A DNA stretch of 64,000 bases from Candidatus Zixiibacteriota bacterium (GTDB lineage: Bacteria > Zixibacteria > MSB-5A5 > UBA10806 > 4484-95). This document shows, piece after piece, positions 17,552 to 62,275 of the stretch. The stretch covers positions 1 through 64,000 of the forward strand of contig JAAEQD010000366.1 of assembly GCA_024231855.1 (NCBI GenBank), given 5' to 3'. A program made the position numbers and the translations under genes. Below the pieces are notes generated by a model. That model was not told the origin of the DNA, did no database searches, and saw only the letters and a program-made list of their open reading frames with translations. How positions within the stretch are numbered: position 1 is the stretch's first letter; the number at the start of each line of letters is the position of its first letter.

Positions 17552-17627
17552 GGCGCTATCGTCTAGTGGACTAGGACGGGTGGTTCTCAGCCATCAAACC
17601 GGGGTTCGATTCCCCGTAGCGCTACCA
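17552..17627 (+). tRNA. tRNA-Glu (anticodon CUC)
   Basis: The 76-nt sequence folds as a cloverleaf with a 7-bp acceptor stem (first pair G-U), a D arm containing TAGTGGACTA, an anticodon loop TTCTCAG giving CUC, a T arm with GGTTCGATTCC, discriminator A and an encoded CCA. It is the integration site of the island: its 3' 28 bp are repeated at 62,248-62,275, so insertion keeps the gene intact. Confidence 0.95.
17600..17627 (+). repeat. attL, 3' end of tRNA-Glu
   Basis: These 28 bp (T arm, 3' acceptor strand and CCA) are identical to 62,248-62,275. The flanking bases differ on both sides, fixing the repeat boundaries. This is the left attachment site. Confidence 0.93.
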
Positions 17628-32226: not shown

Positions 32227-33017
32227 GAAATATTTTAAGTTTATCTGGAGGGAAAGACAGTACTGCTCTGGCCCTGTATATGCGAGATCGGGTTTCAGAT
32301 ATGGAATATGTGTTCTGCGATACAGGGGAAGAGCTTAGAGAAACTTATCGTTATCTTGACCAAGTAGAAGCTTATCTAGGAAAAGAAATCATACGCTTAA
32401 ATGCTAAAGGACCCTTCGAGCATTGGCTCAAGGTTTATGGTGGTTATCTCCCTTCTCCTCAGATGCGATGGTGTACTAAAATTCTTAAGCTTAAACCATT
32501 TGAAGCATTCATTGGTGAAAAACCGGTAATAAGCTATGTTGGATTGAGAGCGGATGAAGACCGAATAGGTTATATAAGTCACAAAAAGAACATTACAACA
32601 ATTTATCCCTTTAAAGATGATGGGATTGGTCTCGCAGGCGTAATGCGGATTCTAGAGAAAAGTGGAATTGGTATGCCCCCTTACCTTGAGTGGGGCCGGT
32701 CGCATTCCGGTTGCTATTTCTGCTTTTTCCAAAAGAAGATCGAATGGGTTAGATTGTTGGAGAAATATCCGGAAGATTTTGAAAAAGCTCAATCATATGA
32801 GAAACTTAGTGACGATGCCGGGAAGACATTCACATGGATCCAAGGGCTTCCCTTAAGCAAACTGAGGATGCCTGAAAAGATAAAACAAATTAAAGTAGAA
32901 TATCAAAAACAGCGAGAACGATTAAAGAAAAACAGAAAGAACAAGAAACTGGTTGAGGTGCTCGCAGAAATGGAGGGGGAAAACGAATCTATCGCATGTC
33001 TGATTTGCCAACTTTAA
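32211..33017 (+). CDS. sspD: SspD-like PAPS-reductase family protein
   Basis: The 268-aa protein has the PP-loop ATP-pyrophosphatase motif SGGKDST at residues 12-18 and several cysteines that could hold an iron-sulfur cluster (RWCTK near 88, SGCYFCFF near 166, and a C-terminal CLICQL). SspD and DndC are members of this family and activate the DNA backbone for sulfur insertion. It is much shorter than DndC, as expected for SspD. The sulfur donor (an SspA/IscS-type cysteine desulfurase) is not in the operon. Confidence 0.8.
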   Translation: MAEEIRNILSLSGGKDSTALALYMRDRVSDMEYVFCDTGEELRETYRYLDQVEAYLGKEIIRLNAKGPFEHWLKVYGGYLPSPQMRWCTKILKLKPFEAFIGEKPVISYVGLRADEDRIGYISHKKNITTIYPFKDDGIGLAGVMRILEKSGIGMPPYLEWGRSHSGCYFCFFQKKIEWVRLLEKYPEDFEKAQSYEKLSDDAGKTFTWIQGLPLSKLRMPEKIKQIKVEYQKQRERLKKNRKNKKLVEVLAEMEGENESIACLICQL

Positions 33018-33040
33018 ATTAAAACAGGAACTCTTGTAAG

Positions 33041-34921: not shown

Positions 34922-36462
34922 ATGATACATTAAAAAGACTCCCACCCCCATCCAATCCCGACCCATCAATGTGGGTCGATGAGGCGATTTGGGGGCATAG
35001 ATTACATGACGAACAGACGCCATGGTTGGTTTATTTGGAGTTTATCAATATATTTTGCTATGAAGAGTCTCAAGGAACAGCCCTGTTTGAATCACATGGT
35101 TATAATAAGTTAGCTTACAAACCAGCTAAACGCCCATATCTCAGGAATATTCTTTTTAACAATCCTAATCTTGATGAAATATGCCGAGTGCATTCTAATG
35201 ATACAGCTCGATGGAAAGCTTGGATTAAGAAAATGGAAACAGTACAGGGCATTAATAACCCTAACTTTAGTTATCTGAAGGATCACTTTCACTCCTTTGA
35301 GGAATTCTGTCATATTGTTTCTATTATCCGTTCTACAAGCCTTGAAACGGATAGCAATAAGCGATGGACATCAAAATTCGTATTTCCCTATGGAGAATCA
35401 TCTTTATACGAGGATCTTGATAAGAAGGCTAAAACCAATGATCGCAGGTTCTTTGGCCGAACTGGCGAAATGCTTTATCTTATGCTGTGTAGAGCTAAGC
35501 GTAGAACAGAACTTGCTAAAATGCTGAAAGAAAAGACTCTGCATAAGGATTCAGTGTGGGATACAATCATTAGATGTTTGCAGCCTGCCGGTGATGATTC
35601 TGATAGAAGCGAACGTGCAAATACCTTTATTCCTTATGAAAGTCATCCGTCATTTGATAAGTTGGCCGAAGATTGGTTAGCGATTCTTTCACTTGATATG
35701 CCTGGTTATGATGCCTTACCGCATCTTGTTAACCTTGCTGGTCTTCATCTCATCCATTATCAACTTACTATTTCAGAACAGGTTGTTAACCGGGGTAACC
35801 CCGTCACTCTTGTTTGTGAGATTGTTGCTCCCAAGAAAACACTGGTGCGGGAATTGTCTTGTGAAACCTATCAAGAAAACAATTTGCTGTCAACTCAAGC
35901 AGTAACTGCATATATATCTGGTATTATTAACTCAGAAGAATGGAAATCAGCGATTTTATCTCATGATCCTTTTATTGAATGCTTGGGAATACTAAAAGAA
36001 AATGTTTTATGGCCTCGAAGGGCTACAGACTATGAGGGGCCTAATAATCAAGATCAGCTTTTAGCAGATTTCCGGACTGCTGCTTTGAGACGGCATAATC
36101 AGCATGTTGGAAATATACATAGGGTTTATGGCAAGAATATCGGATTAGTCTCTCGACGGGGGACTAATAAGCTCAGGTATGCACCAACCGATGACTTGCT
36201 GAAGACATTGCTTTTTGCCAATATAAAGAAGAGAATGGAGCTCCATTTCTTTCTACAGCGATTATGGGATCGGTATGGGATAATACTCGGTGATAAGGAG
36301 GGGGAAAAGATCCTTCCAAAAGATGAATTTGATAAGAAGGCATTTCAAGCAAATTCTCAACGACTTGAACAGCGATTATTAAGCTTAGGATTACTCAATC
36401 GCCTCTCAGACGGCTGTGCTTATGTAGTTAATCCATACTACTTGAGAGGTAAAAATGACTAA
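34918..36462 (+). CDS. sspG: SspG/DptG-like effector subunit
   Basis: The 514-aa protein has no motif I can assign. Its role is inferred from position between the F-type ATPase and the FtsK-type H protein, with overlaps of 4 bp and 8 bp, and from a length similar to DptG/SspG. The C-terminal part is basic and helical (FANIKKRMELHFFLQRLWDR), suggesting DNA or protein contacts. Confidence 0.6.
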   Translation: MNDTLKRLPPPSNPDPSMWVDEAIWGHRLHDEQTPWLVYLEFINIFCYEESQGTALFESHGYNKLAYKPAKRPYLRNILFNNPNLDEICRVHSNDTARWKAWIKKMETVQGINNPNFSYLKDHFHSFEEFCHIVSIIRSTSLETDSNKRWTSKFVFPYGESSLYEDLDKKAKTNDRRFFGRTGEMLYLMLCRAKRRTELAKMLKEKTLHKDSVWDTIIRCLQPAGDDSDRSERANTFIPYESHPSFDKLAEDWLAILSLDMPGYDALPHLVNLAGLHLIHYQLTISEQVVNRGNPVTLVCEIVAPKKTLVRELSCETYQENNLLSTQAVTAYISGIINSEEWKSAILSHDPFIECLGILKENVLWPRRATDYEGPNNQDQLLADFRTAALRRHNQHVGNIHRVYGKNIGLVSRRGTNKLRYAPTDDLLKTLLFANIKKRMELHFFLQRLWDRYGIILGDKEGEKILPKDEFDKKAFQANSQRLEQRLLSLGLLNRLSDGCAYVVNPYYLRGKND

Positions 36463-39400
36463 TCACGAACTCATAGGACTTGTTGGTGCAACTTATCTTA
36501 GGGAAAGGATGTCAAAAGATGATGAAGGAGGGACAGCACGCTATCTCTTAGATTGTCTTACACCCGAACAAACTGGCGCAATTGCAGAAGCTATTTATTT
36601 TGATGCCCAGCTCACAGATTCAACAGAAATCAAACTACCAAAGCACTTTGTTGGTGATCTTGGACTTCTAGATGAATTCCTTACGACGGAAAGAACCACG
36701 TATTTCCGGAATGCGGCATGCAGCAAACCAATTTTATTGGTTGCCAACACGGGAGATGATGAAGAGCAATCCCTAAAAGAACTTGAACCAATTGGACGAC
36801 CACAGCTACTTGAAAACACAGAGGCATGGGTCCAGGCAGTATCTCCAGGACTTCAATTAACTGATGTTAATAAGAAATGGTGGATACAAGCCCTAAATGG
36901 CCTTCTAGATAACAGACATTTTCCCCTTGAACGATTTGCTAGCTATGTTCTAGCTACTAAGGAAGCAATAGAAAATGGTCACCCCATCTTAGCTGCCCTG
37001 GGAGTAGCGCTTCCGGCACTCCAGATCCCAAGAGATACTGCTTATTTCAATGGCCTTAGCGAAAGAACGGCAGGGCATCGGTCAAAATGGAAGAATTTAT
37101 ATAGAAATGCTCTTAATAGGCGTGCATGTTACCTTAGAAAACAAACGCCGACTCAAGGGCTTCTCACTGAAGAAACTTTAAGGAAGTCGTTTGATAATGT
37201 TTCTGATATGATCCCATCTGAATTGTATGGCACCATTAATGATTTTATAGCTTCACCAAGCGGCTGGAATAAAACTTCCAAAGCTTTGGCTGTCTGTGAA
37301 TGGGAATCAGTAAAACCGATATTTGATGGATTAAGAAGAGAGAAATTCAATCTTGGGAAAGCAACTCTTGATTTTTATGATGAACGAGAAGAGGGTTTAT
37401 TATCGGATGATGAGCATGATTATCTTAATCGGTTAACGAAGCGAAATACACGCGAATCTCAAGAAGAAGATGATGATTTTTATCGAAATCATAAATCTGA
37501 ACTTAAAGAAAACACATCGCTCAAAGCCAAATGGGATCGCTTCATTTATGGGAAACCGATCGAGACCAATGATTTTCTAAGCGGAATTGTTCTTAGCCTA
37601 GAAGCTCTATTTGACCAAGATATGCAGAATTGCAAACAAGAATTAAATATTTGGTGTGACAAAAGAGCCAAAGTGGAGCTGAAAAAAGTAAACAATGAAG
37701 CGGGGAAGTATTTCGCTTTCAGATACCGTGGACTTAAAACCCTTTTTGGTAAAAAAGTGAGTTGGGATGTTGGTCATTTATTTGAGTTCGATAGTTTATG
37801 CGAGGAATGGCAATCTGCAAGAAACCGTTATGTTAACCGATCAGTTGCCAAAGCGGCGCTTAGACTTAAATTTTTCTTAGAACTGGAAGTTGAATTCTCA
37901 ACTGGACAAACAGAAAAATATACCAAGCAATTAATATGGACTTTTAATCCAATGTCGATACCGGCAGAACTGTCAGGAGATTGGAGGCGGCTAAGCAAAC
38001 ATCCTTTAGTAAGGTGTGTTGCAAATCTTGAACCAGTTAGCGGGAAAGGGCACTATCAATCTATTGATTTGCACAATGCCAGGACCCTCATGCCAACTTA
38101 TGACCGCAATAGGGGTTCTTTTGTAGCTGTATATAAAACGGAATTAGATATTGCATGTCTTTGGCCTAATTATCTTTCTATGTCCAAAGAAAAAGGCCTT
38201 ATTGACAAAGAAACGTCAGATAAGCTTGTTACGCTATTTAACAAATTTAAGGCCAGCTATTCAAGCGCAATAAAGGATTTCGTTATTGATGGAATTGCTT
38301 CAATAACCCTACTTGAACAAGCAAAAGACTACCATAATCTTCTTAATGCTATTTGTCGACATGCAAAAGGTGATCGCAATCGTGAGCTTCTCCTTAAACC
38401 TTTGATGGAAATCGGTGCTGTCCGGATTGAAGGTGGTAAATTAACTACAATAGTTGCGCCGTGGCATCCTTTGCGAATTGCAGCCATGGCAACAAAAGCT
38501 ATGCAGGTCTCTTCTTTAATTAGATATTTACTTGATGCAGACGAGATACTATTCGGAGATACTAAGCTATTTTTCAAAGAGCTGAAAAATGAAATAGCCC
38601 ACCCATATTACCCTGAAATTGTTCTTAGTTGGACAAACACAAAGCCAGAATTACTATCATTAACAGATGCTCATCTTGATTACAGTCTTCATGAACCTCC
38701 CATTGCATCATATGATGGTTTTGACGATACAAATGAAAATCCCTCTGAAAGCGCTGAGTTAATTCTGAATACTGTTAAAAGATTCTTAGCCCTATATCCT
38801 CATGAAAAAACTAACTTATCTTTAGTCTTATACAATTCTGATTCAGCCAGGTTGCCTCAGAGCATTGTTGACAAAATTAGCAAATTGCGGGATGATGAAG
38901 AGGATATGCGCTGTCAAATCATTCTCAGGCACCGTGATAGTAAAAAACTAAATGATCTTTATATTAAAATAGTTGAAACCGTAGATACCGATCCCGACTC
39001 ATCTGTTGCAAGCGAAACTGCTAAGGACTTTATGGCAAGATTGCGTATCGGTATAATGGTGGATCAGGCCCCAATCCCAGATCCGAAGGATGGACCGCCA
39101 GCAGATTTGGTGTTTCTCCAAGATGTAATTACTCGCCATGCAAAGCTAGAATGGTATCGAGTAGATGCTACCCCAATCGAATCGTCTAAGCACTATCCTC
39201 CTCGTTGGTCTCGTCGGCGTCCATCAGCCACTGATGATATGAAATCAATCGTTTTTCTTTGTTCGCCTGTGCAGACCGAAGAATGCTGGTCCTACATAAC
39301 GGCACTTACCTCATTTCTCAAAGGAAAGTGGGACGGGGATAGAAGCAGAAGGTTGCTTCCGGCACGGCAGCTTGACTTTAATGATCCTGATACAGCGTCT

Positions 39401-41698
39401 ATTTTTAAAGAAATTCATAATCTAGGGAATTGGGTTGTTAATTATGACGAACTACTGGACCGTCGCCAATTGTTGAATCAGAATGTTCGAATAATTCAAT
39501 ATAAACAACTTGCTACGCAAGGGAGAAATGTACTAGTTTCCTCGACCGCCCCACTTGGATTATTACAATCTATGGTTCATAGCCGTATTAGAGATTTGAA
39601 TATAGATCTAACTAATGAAGAATGTAAAAAGTTAACTGACCGCTTTCTTTCTGATGCAACCGAGATTTCGGGTGATATTGTACTTAGAGCAGCGAAACGA
39701 GGTAGAAACGCGAGTGAATTGATGGGAATAGTCCTTAGCCATTTCCTTATCCAACAGGAGCTAGGGGCTAGCAGTTATATTGGATGGTATTTTCTCGATG
39801 ATTATGCTGAATGGTTGGGACAGAAAGAGGAACAAATTGCTGATATCTTGGCCCTAGTTCTCCATAGCAGTGACGATGGTAAAATGCGACTTTCTGTAAT
39901 TGTTTGCGAATCAAAATATATTCATGCAGACAGTCTATCTAATAAAAGGAGAGAATCACAGAAACAGCTGAGAGATACAGTACGGAGAATCAGTGATGCA
40001 ATTTTTGGAGATCCTCGCCGACTTGATAGAGATCTATGGTTATCACGTTTTTCTGATCTAGTTCTTAATGGGATTCAATTTCCTGCTAGCGCCAATGTTG
40101 ATCTTAATGCATGGCGGAGAGCCATTAGAGAAGGAGCCTGCGAAATTTATTTACGGGGATATTCCCATATATTTGTGTGTGGTCCCACTGATGCCCCTGA
40201 ATGTTCCGACTTTGTTAAAGTAGCTGAGTTGAGCAATTCTTATCAGGAAGTATATTCCCGTTCAGCACTTCGTGAATTAATAAAGCATTATTGGAAAAAT
40301 ACTGATCCGATGGATCTTCGTAGAAAGAACGCTGAGATTGATATCTGGGCTAATCAAGAGTACAAGCCACCTACTGAAATACATGATATTTCAAGTAAAA
40401 CAAGTGGAAGTATAACGGAAGAGGATGTTGAAAGGCAAGACAAACAGATCGATAATGCTAAGAAGGTCGAAGCGAGAGAAGAATCTGAGTATAAAAATGA
40501 TATTAGAGAAATAGACGTTAAACAAAAACATAAAACTGCAATGTCGGCTTCATCTGAATGGGCTTATCCAGGGATAGGTAAGATAATAGCCCAGTATCAA
40601 GATGGGGCCTTGGACACTGCTGAGGAAATGAAATGGTTGAAAAAAACAGAGAATGTTTGTAAGGGGGCTCTGCAACAATTTCAATTAAGGGCAAAGCTAT
40701 TAAGCAGCACACTTACACCTAATGCTGCATTATTGAAATTTCTTGGAAGTGCTGATATGACCGTTGAAAAAGTGTCAAAGAGGACCTCGGAATTTCTCAC
40801 AACACACGGTTTACCTATAATTTCAGTGCGAGCAGAGCCTGGAACGGTGGTGATATCAATCGCGCGGCCCAATCGTAGAATATTGCATCTCTTGGATGTA
40901 TGGAAGGAATGGAGACCTGATTGCACACGGGGAAATCATAAATTGTTAGTTGGACTAAAAGAAGAGGATAGTTCTCGGCTCTTTATTTCTCCCAAAGAAA
41001 ATTCTCCGCATACGTTAATTGCGGGATCTACTGGGAGTGGTAAATCCGTTCTTATGCAAAACATTATACTTGCCATTGCATGCACAAATACTGTTGAGTG
41101 GTCCCGGATAACACTGATTGATCCGAAGTGCGGAGTAGATTATTTCCCCTTTGAAGGTCTACCCCATCTTCAAGGAGGGGTCATCGATAATCAGGATGAA
41201 GCTATATCAAGTCTAACACGACTTGTTGATGAGATGAATCGACGATATGAGGTGCTAAGAAGCAATCGAGTTTCAAGTATTTATGATCTTAATAAGAAAA
41301 AGGATGCTTCGGTACATCTTCCTTTTCTATGGGTTATTCACGACGAATTTGCTGAATGGATGATGACTGACGATTATAGGAGTAATGTCGCCAATATTGT
41401 GGCAAGGCTTGGGGTAAAAGCCCGTGCAGCAGGGATATTCCTTGTATTTGCAGCACAACGGCCTGATAATAATGTAATGCCAATGCAACTTAGATCTAAC
41501 CTTGGAAATCGCTTAATTCTCCGAGTTGATGGTGAAGGAACTTCTGAAATAGCCCTTGGAGAAAAAGGGGCAGAAAAGTTATTGGGAAAAGGCCACGTTG
41601 CTGTGAAACTCGAGGGGCATGACGATATATTAACTGCTCAAGTTCCGTTTATTGAACCTTCTGAAATAGAGACAATCGTTTCAAAACTAGGCTCTTGA
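36455..41698 (+). CDS. sspH: SspH/DptH-like FtsK-type DNA translocase
   Basis: The 1747-aa protein ends in an FtsK/SpoIIIE-HerA type motor: Walker A GSTGSGKS at 1524-1531 (within TLIAGSTGSGKSVLMQ), LIDPKCGVDYF after it, and Walker B FLWVIHDEFAEWM near 1624-1636. Upstream, a D1130 and E1152-S-K1154 arrangement (within SVIVCESKYI) resembles a PD-(D/E)xK nuclease core. An acidic/lysine-rich linker lies near 1310-1370. This matches the large DptH/SspH subunit, the presumed DNA-moving and damaging component. No clear terminator follows. Confidence 0.78.
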   Translation: MTNHELIGLVGATYLRERMSKDDEGGTARYLLDCLTPEQTGAIAEAIYFDAQLTDSTEIKLPKHFVGDLGLLDEFLTTERTTYFRNAACSKPILLVANTGDDEEQSLKELEPIGRPQLLENTEAWVQAVSPGLQLTDVNKKWWIQALNGLLDNRHFPLERFASYVLATKEAIENGHPILAALGVALPALQIPRDTAYFNGLSERTAGHRSKWKNLYRNALNRRACYLRKQTPTQGLLTEETLRKSFDNVSDMIPSELYGTINDFIASPSGWNKTSKALAVCEWESVKPIFDGLRREKFNLGKATLDFYDEREEGLLSDDEHDYLNRLTKRNTRESQEEDDDFYRNHKSELKENTSLKAKWDRFIYGKPIETNDFLSGIVLSLEALFDQDMQNCKQELNIWCDKRAKVELKKVNNEAGKYFAFRYRGLKTLFGKKVSWDVGHLFEFDSLCEEWQSARNRYVNRSVAKAALRLKFFLELEVEFSTGQTEKYTKQLIWTFNPMSIPAELSGDWRRLSKHPLVRCVANLEPVSGKGHYQSIDLHNARTLMPTYDRNRGSFVAVYKTELDIACLWPNYLSMSKEKGLIDKETSDKLVTLFNKFKASYSSAIKDFVIDGIASITLLEQAKDYHNLLNAICRHAKGDRNRELLLKPLMEIGAVRIEGGKLTTIVAPWHPLRIAAMATKAMQVSSLIRYLLDADEILFGDTKLFFKELKNEIAHPYYPEIVLSWTNTKPELLSLTDAHLDYSLHEPPIASYDGFDDTNENPSESAELILNTVKRFLALYPHEKTNLSLVLYNSDSARLPQSIVDKISKLRDDEEDMRCQIILRHRDSKKLNDLYIKIVETVDTDPDSSVASETAKDFMARLRIGIMVDQAPIPDPKDGPPADLVFLQDVITRHAKLEWYRVDATPIESSKHYPPRWSRRRPSATDDMKSIVFLCSPVQTEECWSYITALTSFLKGKWDGDRSRRLLPARQLDFNDPDTASIFKEIHNLGNWVVNYDELLDRRQLLNQNVRIIQYKQLATQGRNVLVSSTAPLGLLQSMVHSRIRDLNIDLTNEECKKLTDRFLSDATEISGDIVLRAAKRGRNASELMGIVLSHFLIQQELGASSYIGWYFLDDYAEWLGQKEEQIADILALVLHSSDDGKMRLSVIVCESKYIHADSLSNKRRESQKQLRDTVRRISDAIFGDPRRLDRDLWLSRFSDLVLNGIQFPASANVDLNAWRRAIREGACEIYLRGYSHIFVCGPTDAPECSDFVKVAELSNSYQEVYSRSALRELIKHYWKNTDPMDLRRKNAEIDIWANQEYKPPTEIHDISSKTSGSITEEDVERQDKQIDNAKKVEAREESEYKNDIREIDVKQKHKTAMSASSEWAYPGIGKIIAQYQDGALDTAEEMKWLKKTENVCKGALQQFQLRAKLLSSTLTPNAALLKFLGSADMTVEKVSKRTSEFLTTHGLPIISVRAEPGTVVISIARPNRRILHLLDVWKEWRPDCTRGNHKLLVGLKEEDSSRLFISPKENSPHTLIAGSTGSGKSVLMQNIILAIACTNTVEWSRITLIDPKCGVDYFPFEGLPHLQGGVIDNQDEAISSLTRLVDEMNRRYEVLRSNRVSSIYDLNKKKDASVHLPFLWVIHDEFAEWMMTDDYRSNVANIVARLGVKARAAGIFLVFAAQRPDNNVMPMQLRSNLGNRLILRVDGEGTSEIALGEKGAEKLLGKGHVAVKLEGHDDILTAQVPFIEPSEIETIVSKLGS

Positions 41699-45717: not shown

Positions 45718-46410
45718 CTATTCCTTATTCACTAAAACACTTAAAGCTATTATACTGGAATTCATTGAAATATGAACAACTATTGAAAACAATAGCGACC
45801 CAGACATAATATATAAAGCACCCAGAACTAGACCGCCAATGCTTAGCTTAAACAGGGATTTCCACCCTTGGTATAAATGAGCAAAACCGAAAATGGCAGA
45901 AGATAGTAGCAGGGCAATCCCAAGACTCGTGAAATTACTAAGATAGCCGATTAAATAGCCTCTAAATAGAATTTCTTCGGCTATTCCCCCAATTATCACC
46001 ATTGGGATAAAGAATCTTAATTGTATGGAGCTAGTAGGCAAAAATATTTGAGTAGATTTCAATTTTTCTTTTATATGGTCGTATTTGCTTTTATCAGAAA
46101 GCGCCTCGAAAAACCTGAACCACATCCCACCAATTAAGGATACTGAAATAAGTGAAGCGATAAGCGATCCTTTGTTTAAAGCAAACTTGAAACCTATAGA
46201 GAAGATATCCCCATAAGCTAAATACCATAATGCAAGCGCGATCACAGCTTCTATAAAAGGAAACAAATATATCTTGAAGTAAATTACCCACTTATTCAAA
46301 ACGTATTTTGGATTAGTCTTTGTTGAATTTGGTAACCAGATAAATTTATAATACAAAGGTAAGACAAAACAGATTAGTCCAACAAATATATGATTCACTA
46401 TGCTATTCAT
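45718..46410 (-). CDS. CPBP family intramembrane metalloprotease (Abi-like)
   Basis: The 230-aa protein has about six to eight membrane spans and the CPBP signature: EEILFRGYL (glutamate pair and arginine), FGFAHLYQG and the C-terminal HISMN. The family covers CAAX-type proteases and bacteriocin-immunity proteins. Within an island containing tiny amphipathic peptide genes about 160 bp away on the same strand, a role in immunity or peptide processing is attractive but unproven. Confidence 0.85.
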   Translation of the reverse strand: MNSIVNHIFVGLICFVLPLYYKFIWLPNSTKTNPKYVLNKWVIYFKIYLFPFIEAVIALALWYLAYGDIFSIGFKFALNKGSLIASLISVSLIGGMWFRFFEALSDKSKYDHIKEKLKSTQIFLPTSSIQLRFFIPMVIIGGIAEEILFRGYLIGYLSNFTSLGIALLLSSAIFGFAHLYQGWKSLFKLSIGGLVLGALYIMSGSLLFSIVVHISMNSSIIALSVLVNKE

Positions 46411-46532: not shown

Positions 46533-46556
46533 AAAACCGGCAGATTCGCCGGTTTT
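46533..46556. terminator. bidirectional terminator after peptide pair 1
   Basis: AAAACCGGC (46533-46541) pairs with GCCGGTTTT (46548-46556) around a 6-nt loop. T tracts follow on both strands, and on the minus strand it lies 14 bp past the stop of the 37-aa peptide gene. Confidence 0.85.
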
Positions 46557-46569
46557 TTTAGCTCTAAAT

Positions 46570-46683
46570 TCATTCGGATTTGGTATCTTCCGGCTCATCG
46601 TCCTTACTCAATACCAGCTTCAATATCTTCTCAACCAGCGTAGCTACCGATTTGGCAAGCTCTTCAATATCTAATGCTTTCAT
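46570..46683 (-). CDS. small anionic amphipathic peptide, pair 1 second gene (B1)
   Basis: The ORF encodes 37 aa beginning MKALDIEELAKSVATLVEKI and ending in an acidic tail. It is predicted as one amphipathic helix and has more acidic than basic residues. It starts 2 bp after the stop of the 23-aa peptide A1 and has no ribosome site of its own, so coupling is likely. The 28-aa B2 peptide at 48,524-48,610 is similar (DI-x(n)-A-x(n)-KIxKLxx followed by acidic residues). Function unknown. Confidence 0.65.
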   Translation of the reverse strand: MKALDIEELAKSVATLVEKILKLVLSKDDEPEDTKSE

Positions 46684-46685
46684 AA

Positions 46686-46757
46686 CTACGCTCGGCAGAT
46701 GAGGCGTTTTATTATCTCAGACGCCACAGCCGCTAACGTCTTAAGGAATTTGGCCAT
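46686..46757 (-). CDS. small cationic amphipathic peptide, pair 1 first gene (A1)
   Basis: The ORF encodes 23 aa, MAKFLKTLA at the start and ASEIIKRLICRA at the end, net positive. AAGGAG sits 7 nt before the ATG. A2 at 48,610-48,681 has exactly the same length and a similar C-terminal half (TAEILKRIVRRA). Such a short, strongly initiated, duplicated ORF with conserved length points to a real peptide: a bacteriocin-like, toxin-like or holin-like role is possible. Confidence 0.65.
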   Translation of the reverse strand: MAKFLKTLAAVASEIIKRLICRA

Positions 46758-46787
46758 GAATATTCTCCTTGTTATAGCTATTTATAA

Positions 46788-46814
46788 TAGTGACCACTAG
46801 TATTCTTATACCAT
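46788..46814 (-). promoter_or_regulatory. extended -10 promoter with inverted repeat, peptide pair 1
   Basis: On the minus strand ATGGTATAAGA (46814-46804) is followed 5 bp after TATAAG by TAGTG-GT-CACTA (46799-46788). The A1 start codon is about 30 bp further on. The layout matches the site at 41,934. Confidence 0.5.
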
Positions 46815-47003
46815 TGAAACGTAGCTAATTTGCTTGACAAAATGGCTTAAATAATTTTACTTATAATGACACAATGGGCGGTTGTATAGCCTTTCCGTGG
46901 GTTTTGGGGTAGAAATTTAGAGTATATTATACTAGAAATACCCCAAATGTTCTGAAGGCGTAATATATTATAATATTAATTATCATTATGAAGCGAGGTT
47001 AAA

Positions 47004-48041
47004 ATGTTTAAAAAGAAAAATAATTTAACGGCGGAAACTGCTGCAGGATTTATTTTAGGCTATGAAATTACTGATTCAAAGTTTAAATCAGTATTAAATT
47101 TAGCGGGAAAAGGTGAAAAGGGTTGGAAAAATCCCATTTTCATCAAACAGTTGATATCGGATCCCTCTTCTTTAATCCTTCATGAGAAATGGTTTTACGA
47201 CCAAACTTCGATTTCAAAAGCGTTAAGCTATCTAAAATCAAGAGGCGTAAAGGACGCTGAAAAACTAATTTATATTTTTAAAGAATCAAATAGATTTGAG
47301 TCAGTGGATTTTCAAAAATCGATTAACGCCGATGATGATGTAGATATAATTTTGGATACAATGAACAAGTGCGGTAAGCAAGAATTTAAAGATGTGATAG
47401 ATCCTTTGGGAAAAACCTATGGCGAGTATGCTCATCCCAACAACTATGAATTCGAACGTATGAATGCGGGTATTATTAAGGCTCTAAGTAGCAAATATCC
47501 CCAAATAATACCATTGGATGATTCGCTAAGAGCCCCTGTTTATGAATATCTTGGTACCAAAACTTTTGCTTCACAGCAACAAAATGCTAACAATTTAAAA
47601 AGTTTTATTAAAGCAAGTTATAATCCGTTAATTCCGATTCCGGAATTTAAAAAAAGGTGGACTCCGGACGAATTTATTAAAATCCATAAATCAAAAGGAG
47701 CTAATCAGCTTAGAGAAATTATCTATAAAATGCGAACCGAGGAAAATATAGAACAGAAAAACATTGAAAGATATATTGATCAATCCCGCAATGTATCATT
47801 ATCTTTATCCCCAACTCGAAATGTAGTATATGCATTCGCAGGCTTGGGTGCCGCCGCACTCTCAGCGGTTCAAACAATTGTTAATCCGCTTTTATATATT
47901 CCAACGGCAATTATTGCAATTATTACCGCTGATCAGCTTTATACTACAATCGATGACAGGTTTAGCGCGGGAAAATTTAAATGGCTTACCGTAGCTGAAC
48001 AGTTATCACAATGGAAAGCACCAAGTGAAGATGAAAATTAA
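47004..48041 (+). CDS. hypothetical protein with C-terminal membrane segment
   Basis: The 345-aa protein is not recognised. Residues 1 to about 270 look soluble and helical with many lysines; residues about 278-322 hold one or two hydrophobic segments (YAFAGLGAAALSAVQTIVNP and LLYIPTAIIAIITA), then a short polar tail. A GAGG site precedes the ATG. It lies between peptide pairs 1 and 2, divergent from pair 1, so it could be an associated immunity, export or regulatory protein; nothing in sequence proves this. Confidence 0.6.
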   Translation: MFKKKNNLTAETAAGFILGYEITDSKFKSVLNLAGKGEKGWKNPIFIKQLISDPSSLILHEKWFYDQTSISKALSYLKSRGVKDAEKLIYIFKESNRFESVDFQKSINADDDVDIILDTMNKCGKQEFKDVIDPLGKTYGEYAHPNNYEFERMNAGIIKALSSKYPQIIPLDDSLRAPVYEYLGTKTFASQQQNANNLKSFIKASYNPLIPIPEFKKRWTPDEFIKIHKSKGANQLREIIYKMRTEENIEQKNIERYIDQSRNVSLSLSPTRNVVYAFAGLGAAALSAVQTIVNPLLYIPTAIIAIITADQLYTTIDDRFSAGKFKWLTVAEQLSQWKAPSEDEN

Positions 48042-48277
48042 ATGGTTATGGGAATATATTTTGATGGTGATACTTGATCATATTTTAATATTGCCATCAT
48101 GACCTTATCACAAAAATGGTGAAGTTCGGCATATTTTGAATATTTGTTGGCTCCGGCAATTCGTCCGGTATATTGTCATAGGTCGGGCAAAACCGGCCAG
48201 GTAGCGTCGCATTAAAAACAGTCATTTGATGAGGCAGGATTTGTCATATACTCTTTCTGAGAAGGAGGGGGAAAGAT

Positions 48278-48421
48278 ATGGCGAATCAACTCAGGATGGC
48301 TGTGATTCGGGCGGGAATAAGATTGCTGCGAAGAGTCTGGGCTGTTCGCCTGCCAGGTATCAACCCAAGCCTGAAGCTCACGCCCGGATTCGGCGTTGGA
48401 TCCCATCAAGGGAGACATTAG
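48278..48421 (+). CDS. small cationic protein
   Basis: The ORF encodes 47 aa from ATG 48278, with AAGGAGG (48262-48268) upstream. The N-terminal half is strongly basic and amphipathic (LRMAVIRAGIRLLRRVWAVR); the C-terminus is glycine-rich. A TATACT box near 48,246 could be its promoter. It converges with peptide pair 2 on a shared terminator. An 81-codon frame overlapping it in another phase lacks a ribosome site and is not called. Confidence 0.45.
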   Translation: MANQLRMAVIRAGIRLLRRVWAVRLPGINPSLKLTPGFGVGSHQGRH

Positions 48422-48484
48422 GGGTTGATGTCACAATTGGAAATCTGATAGTCGAATATGATGTGGATTGAGTAAAAAGAACTT

Positions 48485-48517
48485 AAATGGGGAGTCCTCA
48501 TTCTGGGCTCCCCATTT
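48485..48517. terminator. bidirectional terminator after peptide pair 2
   Basis: AAATGGGGAG (48485-48494) pairs with CTCCCCATTT (48508-48517) around a 13-nt loop. It lies 7 bp past the B2 stop on the minus strand and about 63 bp past the 47-aa gene on the plus strand. Confidence 0.8.
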
Positions 48518-48523
48518 TCATTT

Positions 48524-48610
48524 TCAGTCGTCACCAAAAATCAACTTTATTATCTTCTTCGCTAACTCGGCTGCAGCTTCAATTACCTTATCAATATCGG
48601 GGACTTCCAT
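48524..48610 (-). CDS. small anionic amphipathic peptide, pair 2 second gene (B2)
   Basis: The ORF encodes 28 aa: MEVPDIDKVIEAAAELAKK, then IIKLIFGDD. A strong GGAGGG precedes the ATG, which overlaps the A2 stop by one base (TAATG). It is predicted as one amphipathic helix with net negative charge, and is similar to B1 in order of residues and in position after an A peptide. Confidence 0.68.
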   Translation of the reverse strand: MEVPDIDKVIEAAAELAKKIIKLIFGDD

Positions 48611-48681
48611 TATGCCCTCCTGACAATTCGTTTAAGAATTTCAGCGGTCACTTCCGCGATAACTATCCAAAATGCGCGCAC
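48610..48681 (-). CDS. small cationic amphipathic peptide, pair 2 first gene (A2)
   Basis: The ORF encodes 23 aa from GTG 48681: MRAFWIVIAEV followed by TAEILKRIVRRA. AAGGAGG (minus strand, 48692-48686) lies 4 nt before the start. Length equals A1, and the C-terminal half matches A1 with conservative changes. Its promoter region shares motifs with A1 and with the degenerate copy A3. Confidence 0.68.
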   Translation of the reverse strand: MRAFWIVIAEVTAEILKRIVRRA

Positions 48682-48701: not shown

Positions 48702-48727
48702 GATGATCATCATTCTTCTTATGCCAT
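48702..48727 (-). promoter_or_regulatory. -10 box with palindrome, peptide pair 2
   Basis: On the minus strand ATGGCATAAG (48727-48718) is followed 6 bp later by the palindrome GATGATCATC (48711-48702). The A2 start is about 20 bp downstream. Confidence 0.45.
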
Positions 48728-48841: not shown

Positions 48842-48952
48842 AACCGGTCCTCAGAAGCGTAGGCCGGTTAGAGATACCGTCCCACACATTAGGGAGAGCG
48901 GGACTCCTAAAAGGGATCCAGGGCAAGCAGACCCAGGGTCTCCTATTTTTTT
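48842..48952. other. run of hairpins, possible structured RNA or terminators
   Basis: Three consecutive hairpins are visible: AACCGG-(T)-CCT with AGG-CCGGTT (48842-48869), GTCCC with GGGAC (48879-48904), and AGACCC-A-GGGTCT (48929-48941), the last followed on the plus strand by a seven-T tract. On the minus strand the first hairpin runs into T7 and would terminate the A3 transcript. It may be two facing terminators or a small noncoding RNA. Confidence 0.4.
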
Positions 48953-48985
48953 GGTAAAATTTTTTTGCACTTAATAAGGGTTTTA

Positions 48986-49054
48986 TCATTTAGTCAATGG
49001 TAAACAAGGATCAAATTGTTGCATCCCAGCGACGACTTTCCATAATGCGTGCAC
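48986..49054 (-). pseudogene. degenerate third copy of the A peptide gene (A3)
   Basis: GTG 49054 follows AGGAGGACAA, nearly identical to the A2 leader. The first nine codons resemble A2 (M-x-A-x-W-x-V-x-A), after which the frame diverges and ends at 22 aa with no amphipathic helix. No B-type ORF follows. It looks like a decayed duplicate, though a diverged working peptide cannot be excluded. Confidence 0.5.
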
Positions 49055-49074: not shown

Positions 49075-49101
49075 GATGAATCATCTATATTCTTATGCCA
49101 T
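49075..49101 (-). promoter_or_regulatory. -10 box with palindrome, third peptide copy
   Basis: On the minus strand ATGGCATAAGAA (49101-49090) is followed by GATGA-T-TCATC (49085-49075), the same arrangement as in pair 2. Confidence 0.4.
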
Positions 49102-51580: not shown

Positions 51581-53365
51581 ATGAAAAACGACGATTTCCC
51601 TCCTAGATATTTGTTCGAGTTTTTAAAGATTAAAGAATATATAAATCATTCTATTAATACCACTGTTCAAGACAATCCTCTTGATTCAAGTATTCCGATA
51701 TTAGTGTCTAATCTGCACAAGCTCGCTATATCAAGGATACCAGATGTATATCTTCTTACAATCGCTGTTAAATATGAGAATATTTTTGATATCGCTTTTC
51801 CATCGGGAGCAGATACAAGAAAGTACTTTAGAATAATCAGCTTTGATAGCTATATCGGCAAATGTTGCAGAAAGCATAAGGATGATCCCGACAATAATAT
51901 TTTCATTCTGAATGGTAAAGAAGAAATGTGTTTCGAAGAAGAAATATCCCAAAAAGATTATTTCATTAGGGATAAGCAAATGAACTGCTTCTGCGTAGTC
52001 CCTTTAGTTTTTGCGGATGAAATTGTCGGATCAATTCAGTTATCATTGATGAATGAGCTTAGTTCAACTGATGAGGTTTCAATGTTTCTTCTCTCGGCGA
52101 AATCGTATTTTAACGAAATGATTGCATATGAGCAATCGCGACTAACAGGTATAATAGAAGCTGCTGATATTGCGGTGGAAGCATTAGGATGCCGAGATGA
52201 GTTTCAAGCAGAGCACTCCAAGAATGTCGCCAAACTGGTTGAAGCTTTTTTAGAATACATCCGACAATCTGAGCAATATCGCGACATGTTTTTTGGAAGT
52301 CCAATAGGTGGAATGAACTACGCTAAGCTGAAGTTGTCTGCCCTCTTACATGATATCGGGAAAATAGCTATTCCTTCACGATCCTTTTCTCAGATTGATA
52401 GTCTGGAAGATAGCTGTTATCGTCATATTCATCCATATTATACCTATCAAATACTTTCTACTTGTAAACTTACAAAAAGTATTGCATCACAATCTGCAAA
52501 CCACCACGAAAGAGTGGATGGAGCAGGTTATCCTTTTCATGTCAATCCCAATCTAATTACCGCAGAGGAGCAAATCATTGCTTTTGCTGACAAACTTGAC
52601 TCTATGGCAAGAGACCGCCCTGAGAGGCCTGTGGCAAAGACTTTTGAAGATTATAAGAATGATCTTAAGAGGGATAGATTTAAGAACGCATTTTCCAAGG
52701 AGATCTATCTTATTCTATTATCAATTACTAGCACCTTCTCGAATGAAGATAAAATACCAGTAGGTATAAAACGAATATTATCACATGCTGCTAGACCATT
52801 AGTGATTCTCCAGCAAAGGCGTGCTGATAGACAATCTATCGAAAATCTAAACGACCATATAAATTCACTTAGGAATAAGGTCGTTAAAAATCAATGGATT
52901 TGCATGTTTGCAGTATCAACAAGGAATGCCAATTCAATTATTGATAGTGCATCTTCTGATTATATTAAGTTTTCTCCCGAATTTGGAGAAATCATCAAAG
53001 ATAACTATAGCGGTTGGAATAAAAATTTTGATGTTTCTATTGAGGAGATAAATGATTTCATAAACAACGTCGCTATATATGCTAGTAAAGATTTCAACAG
53101 TGAACCGCAAGGATACAGCATATATATAGGATATTATGTAACGCATCCTGAAGTAAATAGAGTGTTTTCGTATGCTTTTTTTAGAGCAATTGCTCATTCT
53201 TTATCTGATGACGAAAAATTGTTAGCGGCATTAATTAATAGCAGATATTTAAAACAAAAGGATGCAATCATACGTACTGGCTCTTCGCTTGTAGATAAAC
53301 TAATTAACTTTGATAAGTACTTTGTTGGGAAGTGGGGATTACTACACGAGCCATTTTCGATTTAA
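51581..53365 (+). CDS. GAF and HD-GYP domain protein
   Basis: The 594-aa protein has a GAF-like sensory region (about residues 40-190) and an HD-GYP phosphohydrolase domain with its ligands present: EHSKN, LLHDIGKIAIP near 265, HIHPYYTYQIL near 295, NHHERVDGAGYP near 310 and IIAFADKLDSM. The C-terminal 200 residues are unassigned. HD-GYP proteins usually hydrolyse cyclic di-GMP, but no diguanylate cyclase is visible in the island, so another nucleotide may be the substrate. It lies 20 bp after the kinase gene and 6 bp before a radical SAM gene. Confidence 0.85.
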   Translation: MKNDDFPPRYLFEFLKIKEYINHSINTTVQDNPLDSSIPILVSNLHKLAISRIPDVYLLTIAVKYENIFDIAFPSGADTRKYFRIISFDSYIGKCCRKHKDDPDNNIFILNGKEEMCFEEEISQKDYFIRDKQMNCFCVVPLVFADEIVGSIQLSLMNELSSTDEVSMFLLSAKSYFNEMIAYEQSRLTGIIEAADIAVEALGCRDEFQAEHSKNVAKLVEAFLEYIRQSEQYRDMFFGSPIGGMNYAKLKLSALLHDIGKIAIPSRSFSQIDSLEDSCYRHIHPYYTYQILSTCKLTKSIASQSANHHERVDGAGYPFHVNPNLITAEEQIIAFADKLDSMARDRPERPVAKTFEDYKNDLKRDRFKNAFSKEIYLILLSITSTFSNEDKIPVGIKRILSHAARPLVILQQRRADRQSIENLNDHINSLRNKVVKNQWICMFAVSTRNANSIIDSASSDYIKFSPEFGEIIKDNYSGWNKNFDVSIEEINDFINNVAIYASKDFNSEPQGYSIYIGYYVTHPEVNRVFSYAFFRAIAHSLSDDEKLLAALINSRYLKQKDAIIRTGSSLVDKLINFDKYFVGKWGLLHEPFSI

Positions 53366-53371
53366 GTAATT

Positions 53372-54331
53372 ATGGGAGATAACGTGACAAGCAAATTGAC
53401 TACAATTGCTTTGATGATAACTGATCGCTGTAATCATAATTGCTACCATTGTTTTCGAAAAAGCAAATCTGAATCAGTCAATTTTGATATCAGCCTTATT
53501 AACCAGTTAATAAATAGACTTGATAACCGAAAAGTTGAAAGCGTGAGATTAACGGGAGGAGAGCCATTTATTATAAAAGATCTACACCATATCATAGAAA
53601 AACTTTCCAATAAAGATATTGACTCATCTATTATAACCAATGGGACGTTGCTATCACAGGAGCAAATAATAAAAATGGCTAATGCGGGGCTGAATTATAT
53701 AGGTTTTACTATCCATTCATTAAAAAACGAAAACCATGACAAATTGACATCAAATAAGGGTTCTCTTAAGAGGTTGCTTAAAGCTATTTATCTTGCTGCT
53801 GAAATAGGATTGCCAATTGCTCTTTATTTACCGGTTTCGATCTATAATTGCTTTGAGATATATAATTTAATTGAGTTTGCTTTTAATTTGCCAATTATAA
53901 AACTTAGAATATTAAGTTTATCCCCATTTGGGAATGCTAGATATTTAGCAACACTACCTGATACAAAATGGTTTGATATTGTAAATAAAATTAAGAGACT
54001 CAAATTAGATCCTACAATCCCTTTATATATTCAAAACATTGTTCAGAATAATCCAAATGGCGATGGATGTACTATTGAGCCATTAAAATTTATAAATTGT
54101 GACGTTAATGGATATTTATATTCATGCTGTATTTTATGCTCGCATAGTAAGTTCTCAATTGGAAATATCTCCGAGCTAATAAGCGAAGATTGGAATTATG
54201 CACTCAACAATATCGCGAGAAGGAATCAATTTCTATACGATAATAAGAGATATGGAGAATTGCCGTGTACCGAGATTGGCAATTTTAACAAGCGACGCAT
54301 ATATTGCCCATTACAGAGTGAACGACTATGA
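53372..54331 (+). CDS. radical SAM protein with C-terminal cysteine cluster
   Basis: The 319-aa enzyme has the radical SAM cluster motif CNHNCYHC (C20, C24, C27) and RLTGGEPF near residue 60. Late cysteines (GDGCTIEPL, FINCDVNG, SCCILC and YCPLQ) suggest an auxiliary iron-sulfur site as in SPASM/twitch enzymes. Such proteins modify peptides or small metabolites by radical chemistry. Its stop overlaps the start of a second radical SAM gene by 4 bp. Confidence 0.85.
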   Translation: MGDNVTSKLTTIALMITDRCNHNCYHCFRKSKSESVNFDISLINQLINRLDNRKVESVRLTGGEPFIIKDLHHIIEKLSNKDIDSSIITNGTLLSQEQIIKMANAGLNYIGFTIHSLKNENHDKLTSNKGSLKRLLKAIYLAAEIGLPIALYLPVSIYNCFEIYNLIEFAFNLPIIKLRILSLSPFGNARYLATLPDTKWFDIVNKIKRLKLDPTIPLYIQNIVQNNPNGDGCTIEPLKFINCDVNGYLYSCCILCSHSKFSIGNISELISEDWNYALNNIARRNQFLYDNKRYGELPCTEIGNFNKRRIYCPLQSERL

Positions 54332-55140
54332 TTGCCTATCCGAAATATTGGAGAATAAAAGTAACTAATAGATGTAATCTGAGCTGTACTTTTTGTCATC
54401 AAGAGAACATGCCAGCAAATAGGCGGCTTTATCAATACATTGATGTTGTTTTTATAAGAAAATTGGCATCCGGGCTAATAGAATCTAATGACATTGTAGC
54501 ATTGACTGGCGGCGAGCCGCTTTTGCACAAAGAGTTCAATCAGATTGCATCAATTATTTGTGATAAAGTAAAGACTAAATGCCATCTGAATACCAATGGG
54601 ACTTTACTTGATAGAAAATTAAAATATCTTAAATTGCTTCCGCTTAGTAACATACACATTAATCTATGCACTTTAAATCCAAAGACATATAATTCCATTT
54701 ATGGAAAGAATTGCCTTAATAATATCCACTCTACAATTATAAAAGCTATCGAATTAGGATTCAATATCACCATCAACTATGTAGTAATTGCTGGTATCAA
54801 TGATGCAATACATAATATGAAAAACATCATAAAATTTGCATTATACAATAAATGTAACCTTTCTATAATCGAATCACTATTTGATTATTGTTCAGAGTCT
54901 AAAGGTTATAACTTTCAAAAAACTTATAAAGATATACTTATTTCGCTTGGCTTTAATAAATACAATGAACGAGCTGGGAGATGTTTTTATTCTAAAAGAG
55001 GATTTAAATCAAGTATCATTGTGGCAGCACCTTGTAGTCCGGCGGCTGCCTGGAATGGAACTATAAAGGATGACGCTTTATTAGTTACGGAAGATCAAAC
55101 CATTAAACGATTTTTTACTGGTAATTACTATGAAAAATAA
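54328..55140 (+). CDS. second radical SAM protein (MoaA-like)
   Basis: The 270-aa protein carries CNLSCTFC (C16, C20, C23) and VALTGGEPLLHKEF, a MoaA-like core. It is shorter than MoaA and ends in PCSPAAAWNGTI. It overlaps the preceding radical SAM gene (ATGA) and the following nucleotidyltransferase-like gene by 11 bp. Two different radical SAM proteins in one operon suggest a multi-step modification of one substrate. Confidence 0.85.
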   Translation: MIAYPKYWRIKVTNRCNLSCTFCHQENMPANRRLYQYIDVVFIRKLASGLIESNDIVALTGGEPLLHKEFNQIASIICDKVKTKCHLNTNGTLLDRKLKYLKLLPLSNIHINLCTLNPKTYNSIYGKNCLNNIHSTIIKAIELGFNITINYVVIAGINDAIHNMKNIIKFALYNKCNLSIIESLFDYCSESKGYNFQKTYKDILISLGFNKYNERAGRCFYSKRGFKSSIIVAAPCSPAAAWNGTIKDDALLVTEDQTIKRFFTGNYYEK

Positions 55141-56203
55141 GTCAATCATTGATAACGTAATCAGCGATAAAATTATTGCATGTTTTAATAGTGATATACC
55201 TGATTCAATAAATATAGGAGGTAGCTACTCTAAGAATGAATTTTGTCGTATCGATCATAATGGTTACGATTATTGGTTAAGTGATATTGATCTTATTTGC
55301 GTAGTTAATAATAAATATAATGAGACCGATATACAATATATATATAACAGACTACTAACTCTTTCTAGGAGTATTAACCAAAGCAACCCATATTTCCATA
55401 TAGGCCTTAAATTAAGAAAAAAAGATGCATTGCTAAGTGAAGTAAAATCTATGTATTTTTGGGAACTTCTTGATAGTAGTATTCCTTTAAAAGGACCAAC
55501 ATTTAAGGAATATTTTCCCCAAATTAAAGATATTTGCGATCTAATACCTAAAGGCAAATCTCTTTACAAATTACTTTATAATTATTCTAAAATGCGGCTT
55601 TGGTGTAATATATTGTTTCTTCCCCTTCGAATATTTGAGAAAAGAAACATACATGAATCGATATGGTATTCTTATTTTCTTGCAAGAGGTGTTTTAGATT
55701 GGATAACGTGGGATTTGCTTGAAATTGGCATTTGGGAGAATTCTTATAACGAAAGCTTTAATCTATGGAGCAAATATTATTGTAAAGATGAATCTTATAG
55801 AAAATTTCTATCAAAATGCTTGGAATGCAAGATTGGAGAATCCTATATTCCTTTTCATGGTCATTACGAGAAAATCATTAATTATGAGTTAACAAAAACA
55901 AAAGACTATGGAGATCATATACAAAAAGATTTATGTGATGTAGAATTGGAATTCATCAGACACATGTTATTATTTATTATTGATATGATAAACAAAATAC
56001 CTAACTCGAAAGAGATGCAGTATGCAATAACAGCCTACCAATCACTCGCGAAATGTAAACTGGCCCTTAGTCATGAATCACAATATCACCAATGGCAGCA
56101 GCTGAGAATTCTATATAGCAATTATAGATTTTCTAAAGATTATCTTTCCTGGCAAGATCATAATGTTTACACATCTTACTTTCTAAACGTAGGTGGTATA
56201 TAG
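55130..56203 (+). CDS. nucleotidyltransferase-fold protein
   Basis: The 357-aa protein has the polymerase-beta-type nucleotidyltransferase signature GGSYSKNEF (GGS at 30-32) followed by WLSDIDLICVV (D52, D54). The remaining 280 residues are helical with many aromatic residues and are not recognised. Members of the fold add nucleotides to antibiotics, proteins or RNA. It is the last gene of the five-gene operon and is very AT-rich. Confidence 0.7.
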   Translation: MKNKSIIDNVISDKIIACFNSDIPDSINIGGSYSKNEFCRIDHNGYDYWLSDIDLICVVNNKYNETDIQYIYNRLLTLSRSINQSNPYFHIGLKLRKKDALLSEVKSMYFWELLDSSIPLKGPTFKEYFPQIKDICDLIPKGKSLYKLLYNYSKMRLWCNILFLPLRIFEKRNIHESIWYSYFLARGVLDWITWDLLEIGIWENSYNESFNLWSKYYCKDESYRKFLSKCLECKIGESYIPFHGHYEKIINYELTKTKDYGDHIQKDLCDVELEFIRHMLLFIIDMINKIPNSKEMQYAITAYQSLAKCKLALSHESQYHQWQQLRILYSNYRFSKDYLSWQDHNVYTSYFLNVGGI

Positions 56204-56521
56204 TAATTTTCAAAGCATGCAGTAATATGACTAGTTATACAATGAAGGCTAGAGAGATATCGTTATTTTCAAGTCACTTCAACTTCAGGCGAGGTGAGAT
56301 CAGCTTTCACCTCAGGTTTAAGTATCATTTCGATAGTCCTTTGAATCTGATTGGTTTTTTCACCATGGATCCCTCCAGCATTATTCCACATACGTACCAG
56401 TTTGGAGACACAAAGCTTTCCTTTGGAGCTCGATTTATCTCGATAGACAATGAAACGATGAATGCGCGTTTCCAAAAGTCCATAGAGTTTCTCCATTCTC
56501 GTGATTGCAGGCATAAGAAAC
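56204..56521. other. gap, possible gene remnant
   Basis: Overlapping frames occur on both strands (56,227-56,529 plus and 56,269-56,523 minus), neither with a ribosome site. An inverted repeat GAGGTGA/TCACCTC lies near 56,291-56,313. Composition is less AT-rich than the neighbouring genes, suggesting a separate origin or a decayed gene. Confidence 0.35.
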
Positions 56522-57211
56522 ATGTCTAATTCAAATTACTCAAAAAAGCTTATAAAGGAGATGAATCAGTATTATGAAGCGCGCGCACCTTGGCATGATA
56601 TATTCATGGGCTATGAGTCAGAAAGGCAAATGGAAGAATTCAAAAAATCCATTATCGAAATCCTAACTCCTGTTATAATTGGAAAGCGGGTAATCGAAAT
56701 TGCCTGCGGTACGGGAAACTGGACACAGATCATTGCAAAACGAGCTGAATCGGTAACCGCAATAGACGTAAGCCCAACTGCTCTGGGACTGGCTCAACGG
56801 AAATTAGTCAATCACTGTAATGTCTCTTTGATTCAGTGCGATGCCTACAATTTAAATTGTATTGGTGGTTTATATGATGTATCATTTGCGGCTGATTGGT
56901 GGTCTCACATACCGATGGATGTACTCCCATTATTCGTGGAATCCCTCATGAGCAAGCTTAAAAAACGATCTAAAGTCATTTTCTTGGACATGTCGTTCAG
57001 AGAAGATCATAAGGTAGAATCTTGCTATTACGATTTAGATGACAATCGCATCACTCGTCGTATGTTACCCAGTGGTTCGAATTTTATGGTAGTCAAGAAC
57101 TTTCCACATAAAGAAGCACTTAAGAAATTTCTCTCCCCTTATGCCAAAAGAGTCGATTACTATGAATTAAAGGCTCTGTGCAGATGGATGGTCATATTCA
57201 CACCTAAATAG
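56522..57211 (+). CDS. class I SAM-dependent methyltransferase
   Basis: The protein, about 229 aa, has the methyltransferase motif I VIEIACGTGNW and a motif-II-like aspartate (VTAIDVSPTALGLA). It contains an FAADWWSHIP segment typical of small-molecule methyltransferases. The start is uncertain: ATG 56522 gives MSNSNYSKK, and an in-frame GTG at 56501 would add seven residues; neither has a strong ribosome site. Substrate unknown; it may extend the enzyme set of the preceding operon. Confidence 0.82.
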   Translation: MSNSNYSKKLIKEMNQYYEARAPWHDIFMGYESERQMEEFKKSIIEILTPVIIGKRVIEIACGTGNWTQIIAKRAESVTAIDVSPTALGLAQRKLVNHCNVSLIQCDAYNLNCIGGLYDVSFAADWWSHIPMDVLPLFVESLMSKLKKRSKVIFLDMSFREDHKVESCYYDLDDNRITRRMLPSGSNFMVVKNFPHKEALKKFLSPYAKRVDYYELKALCRWMVIFTPK

Positions 57212-62247: not shown

Positions 62248-62275
62248 CGGGGTTCGATTCCCCGTAGCGCTACCA
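62248..62275 (+). repeat. attR, repeat of tRNA-Glu 3' end
   Basis: The 28 bp are identical to the 3' end of tRNA-Glu at 17,600-17,627, including CCA. The upstream bases do not form a tRNA, so this is the right attachment site and not a second gene. Confidence 0.93.

Follow-up and report, generated by a model that had tools for sequence, protein, structure and literature searches.

A predicted pair of co-translated mini-proteins, alone in a tRNA-Glu island and at the ends of Ubl-conjugation operons of Candidatus Zixibacteria

Closest described systems

Bacterial operons with separate genes for Ubl, E2, JAB and E1 proteins have been classified as type 6d (Iyer et al., 2006; PMC1779556), and the named bacterial Ubl pathways include Bil and Bub, and for the Bub-type operons protection of the host against phage is described as still to be demonstrated (PMC13373217). 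A trailing pair of short peptide genes forms no part of the consulted portions of the type 6d account or of the Bub/Bil account (PMC1779556; PMC13373217). Such a pair, A followed by B, is the subject of this report: it closes Ubl operons in two related genomes (G003 and G008) and is found as separate cassettes in the window, by which we mean the whole stretch of 64,000 nucleotides that was analysed. The operons of the relatives resemble the type 6d and Bub/Bil operons in encoding a GG-tailed Ubl, an E2-like protein with an HPx..C motif, a JAMM protein and a ThiF-type E1. They differ in that their E2 bears a long helix and a Cys-rich tail, and the window differs further in holding the A-B part only.

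When the peptides themselves were compared with Pfam, PHROGs, NCBIfam and PADLOC at E<=10, the one match was to DUF4535 and was insignificant, and no known toxin or antitoxin family in these libraries was matched by either of them, which agrees with the earlier note that the pair is like no named system. A PDB search with the peptides returned designed or unrelated helices only, and an Rfam match to 'Leucine leader' was discarded, as it lay far below the cut-off. Since there is no library match and the pair does not figure in the consulted parts of the operon accounts, A-B is new as an accessory module, the operon type that carries it being known, and it has stand-alone copies in addition.

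Two groups of small effectors offer a further comparison. In type II-like toxin-antitoxin loci such as HigBA, the order of the genes is toxin, then antitoxin. A-B shares with these small pairs the arrangement of two overlapping small genes per transcript, the cationic first product and the stand-alone mobile copies, but its products are far shorter than usual and have no recognisable toxin domain or DNA-binding antitoxin domain. TisB-type toxins and phenol-soluble modulins are leaderless helical peptides of 20-45 aa. A and B are likewise leaderless, short and helical; they differ by the lack of a library sequence match, by the coupling of two genes, by the Ubl operon context and by the absence of a visible exporter.

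The A and B frames and their conservation

The coordinates of the features are collected in Table 1. An ORF check returned the positions, minus strand and peptide lengths of A1, B1, A2 and B2 exactly as they had been given in the earlier note, and the other elements of its description, namely the strong ribosome sites upstream of A1 (AAGGAG) and A2 (AGGAGG), the 2-nt gap between A1 and B1, the TAATG overlap of A2 and B2 and the hairpin that ends each pair (z -2.9 and -4.9 after B1 and B2), were all verified in the sequence. The GGGGAG..CTCCCC of the B2 hairpin is present also after the G003 pairs. B2 has its ribosome site, AGGAGG, within the final codons of A2, and the last codons of A are the usual place of this site across the pairs. 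B1 has no ribosome site of its own; it is therefore probably dependent on the ribosomes that leave A1 and is probably translated by reinitiation. The DNA upstream of the relic A3 matches the DNA upstream of A2 at 78-85%. Between A3 and A2 there is a G+C-rich hairpin stretch (48850-48960, minus strand) with a T-run at its end, which is unique in the genome and has no Rfam match.

Table 1. Positions of the cassettes, their signals and the island ends in the window
Feature	Position	Strand	Remark
A1, 23-aa cationic helix peptide MAKFLKTLAAVASEIIKRLICRA	46686..46757	-	ORF; profile match in G003
B1, 37-aa amphipathic helix peptide	46570..46683	-	ORF; 2 nt after A1 stop
A2, 23-aa cationic peptide (M)RAFWIVIAEVTAEILKRIVRRA	48610..48681	-	ORF; GTG start
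B2, 28-aa amphipathic helix peptide MEVPDIDKVIEAAAELAKKIIKLIFGDD	48524..48610	-	ORF; TAATG overlap with A2
A3, relic of A	48986..49054	-	ribosome site and first 11 codons as in A2, unrelated end; no B after it
Terminator hairpin 3' of B1	46533..46556	-	10 pairs, T-rich tail
Hairpin 3' of B2	48485..48517	-	13 pairs
Promoter-like motif 5' of A1	46803..46813	-	TGGTATAAGAA
Promoter-like motif 5' of A2	48716..48726	-	TGGCATAAGAA
Promoter-like motif 5' of A3	49090..49100	-	TGGCATAAGAA
Rce1/CPBP-type intramembrane protease, downstream of cassette 1	45718..46410	-	PF02517, E 2.6e-21
Island left end, tRNA-Glu 3' end	17600..17627	+	28-nt repeat
Island right end, copy of tRNA-Glu 3' end	62248..62275	+	28-nt repeat

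The search for the frames in related genomes, which had been proposed as a check, found two pairs in G003 and one in G008. With a profile built on A1 and A2 only, two matches were obtained in G003, a genome of another genus (E 9.5e-5), and a B-like frame follows each of these A matches after 3 nt. The fifth pair, in G008, was reached with the B profile (E 5.7e-12); there the A frame overlaps B. Outside our own genus, the frames are thus kept at three loci from two genera, all within the same Ca. Zixibacteria order, and five intact pairs are known in total, from three genomes and three genera including our own. The order of A and then B, which had been claimed as conserved in the window, is the same in the three outside loci, and the genes are coupled everywhere by overlap or by a spacing of 2-3 nt.

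The changes between the copies tend to follow the codons. B1 shares 23 of 28 core residues with the B of one G003 operon (G003b; ps 0.32, pn 0.11), and ps exceeds pn also in the comparison with the other (G003a; 0.64 and 0.16). The cores of the two G003 B genes differ by 12 changes, 10 of them at the third codon position (p 0.0005; ps 0.50, pn 0.05). A1 and the G003 A are identical at 13/23 residues, pn/ps for A is about 0.4-0.8 and the excess of third-position changes is not significant in pairwise comparison; the proposed test of synonymous against non-synonymous change therefore gave a clear answer for B and not for A. The similarity scores in the claimed frame reach 253 for A and 803 for B, against at most 58 and 539, respectively, in the other five frames. 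The notion that the peptides are under selection is upheld by the frames kept in relatives, by the surplus of synonymous over amino-acid change in B and by the lead of the claimed frame in A. On these comparisons of sequences, we read A and B as a real, selected and co-translated pair of mini-proteins.

The chemical description of the pair had to be corrected in part. Amphipathicity is strong in each of the five copies of B (shuffle p <= 0.0008) and weak in A (shuffle p 0.03-0.28), so that the earlier claim of two amphipathic peptides is well borne out for B and only weakly for A. The net charge of B spans -7 to +3 over the family. Because the G008 B stands at +3, 'anionic' is true of the window copies and not of the family, and opposite charge can no longer be held as a trait of the pair.

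The conservation of B also bears on the idea that A is a type I toxin-like product, i.e. a TisB-like membrane peptide mainly under the control of an RNA structure or antisense RNA, with B as a coincidental product or an enhancer. The size and the cationic make-up of A would suit it, and so would the hairpin-rich stretch between A3 and A2. However, at the protein level B is no less conserved than A, promoter-like sites are no commoner than in shuffled sequences and no Rfam match exceeds the gathering cut-off; we consider this explanation quite unlikely.

Profile scans with A and B found no further pair in 387 genomes, other phyla included, and none in viral contigs, phages or plasmids. The other matches of the 387-genome scan were no better than chance or fell within long frames with no relation to A or B, and eight short-frame matches that were inspected had no B-like partner. 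The E2-based scan returned the G008 contig only among the genome contigs, one phage-like operon without A-B (L088) among the viral contigs and no match among the plasmids; an E2 match in G121 was dismissed as a chance match.

Ubl operons of relatives and the island of the window

In all three outside loci (G003a, G003b and G008), A and B are the last two genes of a Ubl conjugation operon, which consists of Ubl, E2-like, JAMM, E1, A and B genes and a hairpin thereafter, with A overlapping the stop of E1 in both genomes. The Ubl has 69-74 aa and is SAMP2/ThiS-like (PF21965, E 1.5e-6; PF02597, E 8.2e-6), and its C-terminus in G003, ..KGGQS, is a glycine pair with a short tail. The E1 is of the ThiF type (PF00899, E 3.6e-31). 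The E2-like protein, of 377-399 aa, has the long helix, an HPH..C motif and the Cys-rich tail; the motif is invariant in five E2-like sequences, the match to UBE2L3 is weak (E 0.14) and the AlphaFold model, with a pLDDT of 39.5, is too poor for use. The JAMM protein carries an HSHx7SxxD motif and matches Prok-JAB weakly (E 0.0078), below the curated cut-off.

One of the G003 operons is damaged: in G003b the UBC core of the E2 is gone by an in-frame deletion and the JAB gene has a stop, and E1, A and B are intact. The A genes of the two copies are identical at 72/72 positions within an identical block of 142 nt, despite only 88% identity of E1, which suggests gene conversion between the two operons, one copy of which is decaying. 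These paralogous operons (L037 and L038, in one genome) share a 241-nt and a 142-nt identical block and their genes are otherwise 82-88% identical.

Ubl operons of the same type may also end without A-B, as in L084, L085, L086 and L088. In L084, from another phylum, a terminator-like sequence follows E1 directly, and in L086, also from another phylum, E1 is followed by the Ubl gene. The operon of L085 (another phylum) ends in a single cationic ORF of 42-45 aa with a strong ribosome site (L085:4727-4864, minus strand), a possible analogue of A. The viral, phage-like contig L088 holds E2-like, JAMM and E1 genes (L088:4359-7854) and no A-B.

It could be argued from this context that A-B is an accessory factor of Ubl conjugation, that is a non-toxic adaptor, membrane anchor or preferred acceptor which directs E1-E2. 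The translational coupling of A-B to E1 and its terminal place in all three outside loci would be expected of such a factor, and the different, single short cationic ORF at the end of the L085 operon agrees with it. However, the genome that holds the three window copies (two of them intact) possesses no Prok-JAB and no E2 of that kind, G003b retains A-B despite the broken E2 core and JAB, and L084 ends without any such peptide. A conjugation adaptor is the main rival to a toxin-antidote reading, and we hold it to be rather unlikely; a bacteriocin is less likely.

No E1, E2, JAB or Ubl ORFs were found around the cassettes of the window, and since the operon-type E2 and Prok-JAB are missing from their own genome of 5.37 Mb, the window cassettes stand alone. 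A possible link to the operons lies in the DNA upstream. Shared promoter motifs had been put forward for the cassettes; the promoter-like motif TGGYATAAGAA is found at A1 and A2 and also at A3, and in combination with a ribosome site it occurs three times in the whole genome, precisely at these places. The motif alone has five exact matches in the 323 kb examined: the three cassettes, an unrelated place and the G008 operon, where it lies 58 nt 5' of the Ubl gene. In G003a, AGGTATAAGGA stands 74 nt 5' of the Ubl gene. In view of this common motif, one promoter or regulator seems to serve both the Ubl operons and the orphan cassettes, and a simple possible history of the latter would be that the Ubl genes were lost between the promoter and A.

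The cassettes belong to a 44.6-kb island (17600-62275) in tRNA-Glu, and a tyrosine-type integrase ORF, read from the sequence, adjoins the tRNA (17764-18774). The island also holds a complete SspBCD-SspFGH phosphorothioate-type defence set (27810-41698). This shared location might mean that A-B is a helper of the Ssp defence, duplicated in the island by chance, but the two lie on opposite strands about 5 kb or more apart and the small contigs bearing the copies of the relatives have no Ssp genes, and we deem such a role highly improbable. Between the two cassettes, the plus strand encodes a 345-aa orphan protein (47004-48041) that is hydrophobic over a stretch close to the C-terminus; Pfam, NCBIfam and the viral and plasmid records contain nothing related to it, and PADLOC gave only a weak cyclase match (E 0.0025). 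Further on, at 51581-57211, a row of genes encodes an HD-domain protein, a neighbouring pair of radical-SAM proteins, a 357-aa protein with no match and a methyltransferase, possibly a modification cluster of unknown kind.

The CPBP protein next to cassette 1 is a putative partner of the pair, found near one of the six copies only. CPBP-type proteins are known to confer bacteriocin immunity, and class IIb bacteriocins are recognised by a double-glycine leader, by GxxxG in both peptides and by a dedicated transporter and immunity gene. A-B resembles the latter in its two adjacent short peptides and in the CPBP protein near one copy. The pair could accordingly be two peptides, secreted or active on membranes (a leaderless bacteriocin, PSM-like peptides or lysis peptides), for which the protease directly downstream of B1 gives immunity; its short, leaderless helices, cationic in one and amphipathic in the other, would suit such an agent. 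However, the ORFs are of mature size without a leader, none of the nine A and B peptides has a strict GxxxG, no transporter is among the island genes scanned, and three of the copies end Ubl operons. The two-component bacteriocin suggested in the earlier note is weakened by these facts, and we regard an agent of this kind as improbable.

A possible toxin-antidote-like reading

We take A-B for a small module, probably an effector or a toxin with its antidote. Of the functions listed in the earlier note, a toxin with a neutralising partner would fit best. Our tentative preference, held with less than even confidence, is that the helix pair is a toxin-antidote-like effector of Ubl operons which is able to persist alone; the toxicity, the binding of A to B and the Ubl role in it are what we infer. 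B would fold as an amphipathic helix that associates with A, the short cationic one. On its own, A would be harmful and would target membranes or another polyanion; B would keep it silent. The pair would then serve as a small effector of the Ubl operon and, as A could not be safely made without B, it would survive the loss of other genes and persist when they vanish, as in the island, where it may also help to retain the element.

The toxin-antidote reading is favoured by the fixed gene order, by the tight coupling, by the survival of the pair after gene loss and by the fact that an intact A without B is seen in none of the six loci (one a relic), the sole B-less A, A3, being broken. Several observations count against it. 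The B of cassette 1 seems tied to the ribosomes that finish A, so it would be made in equal amounts at most, with no excess of antidote. The weak amphipathicity of A and the unconserved charge of B do not favour this reading, nor do the Ubl operons that end without A-B (L084, L085, L086 and L088). The occurrence of the pairs in three genomes only and the count of six loci behind 'no A without B' are weak points, and the loss of E2 and JAB in G003b may be recent, so that the survival of A-B there is weak evidence. A further possibility, which appears doubtful to us, is that a membrane-active peptide is set free when the Ubl is attached to A or B or removed from them, and that the module leaves its operon to become a free-standing part of mobile defence islands.

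Peptides of the A-B type are short enough to escape gene callers at the ends of Ubl operons. A-B is a concrete and easily tested candidate for an output of Bub-type operons. The case of the window shows how an A-B-like module can survive alone in mobile islands.
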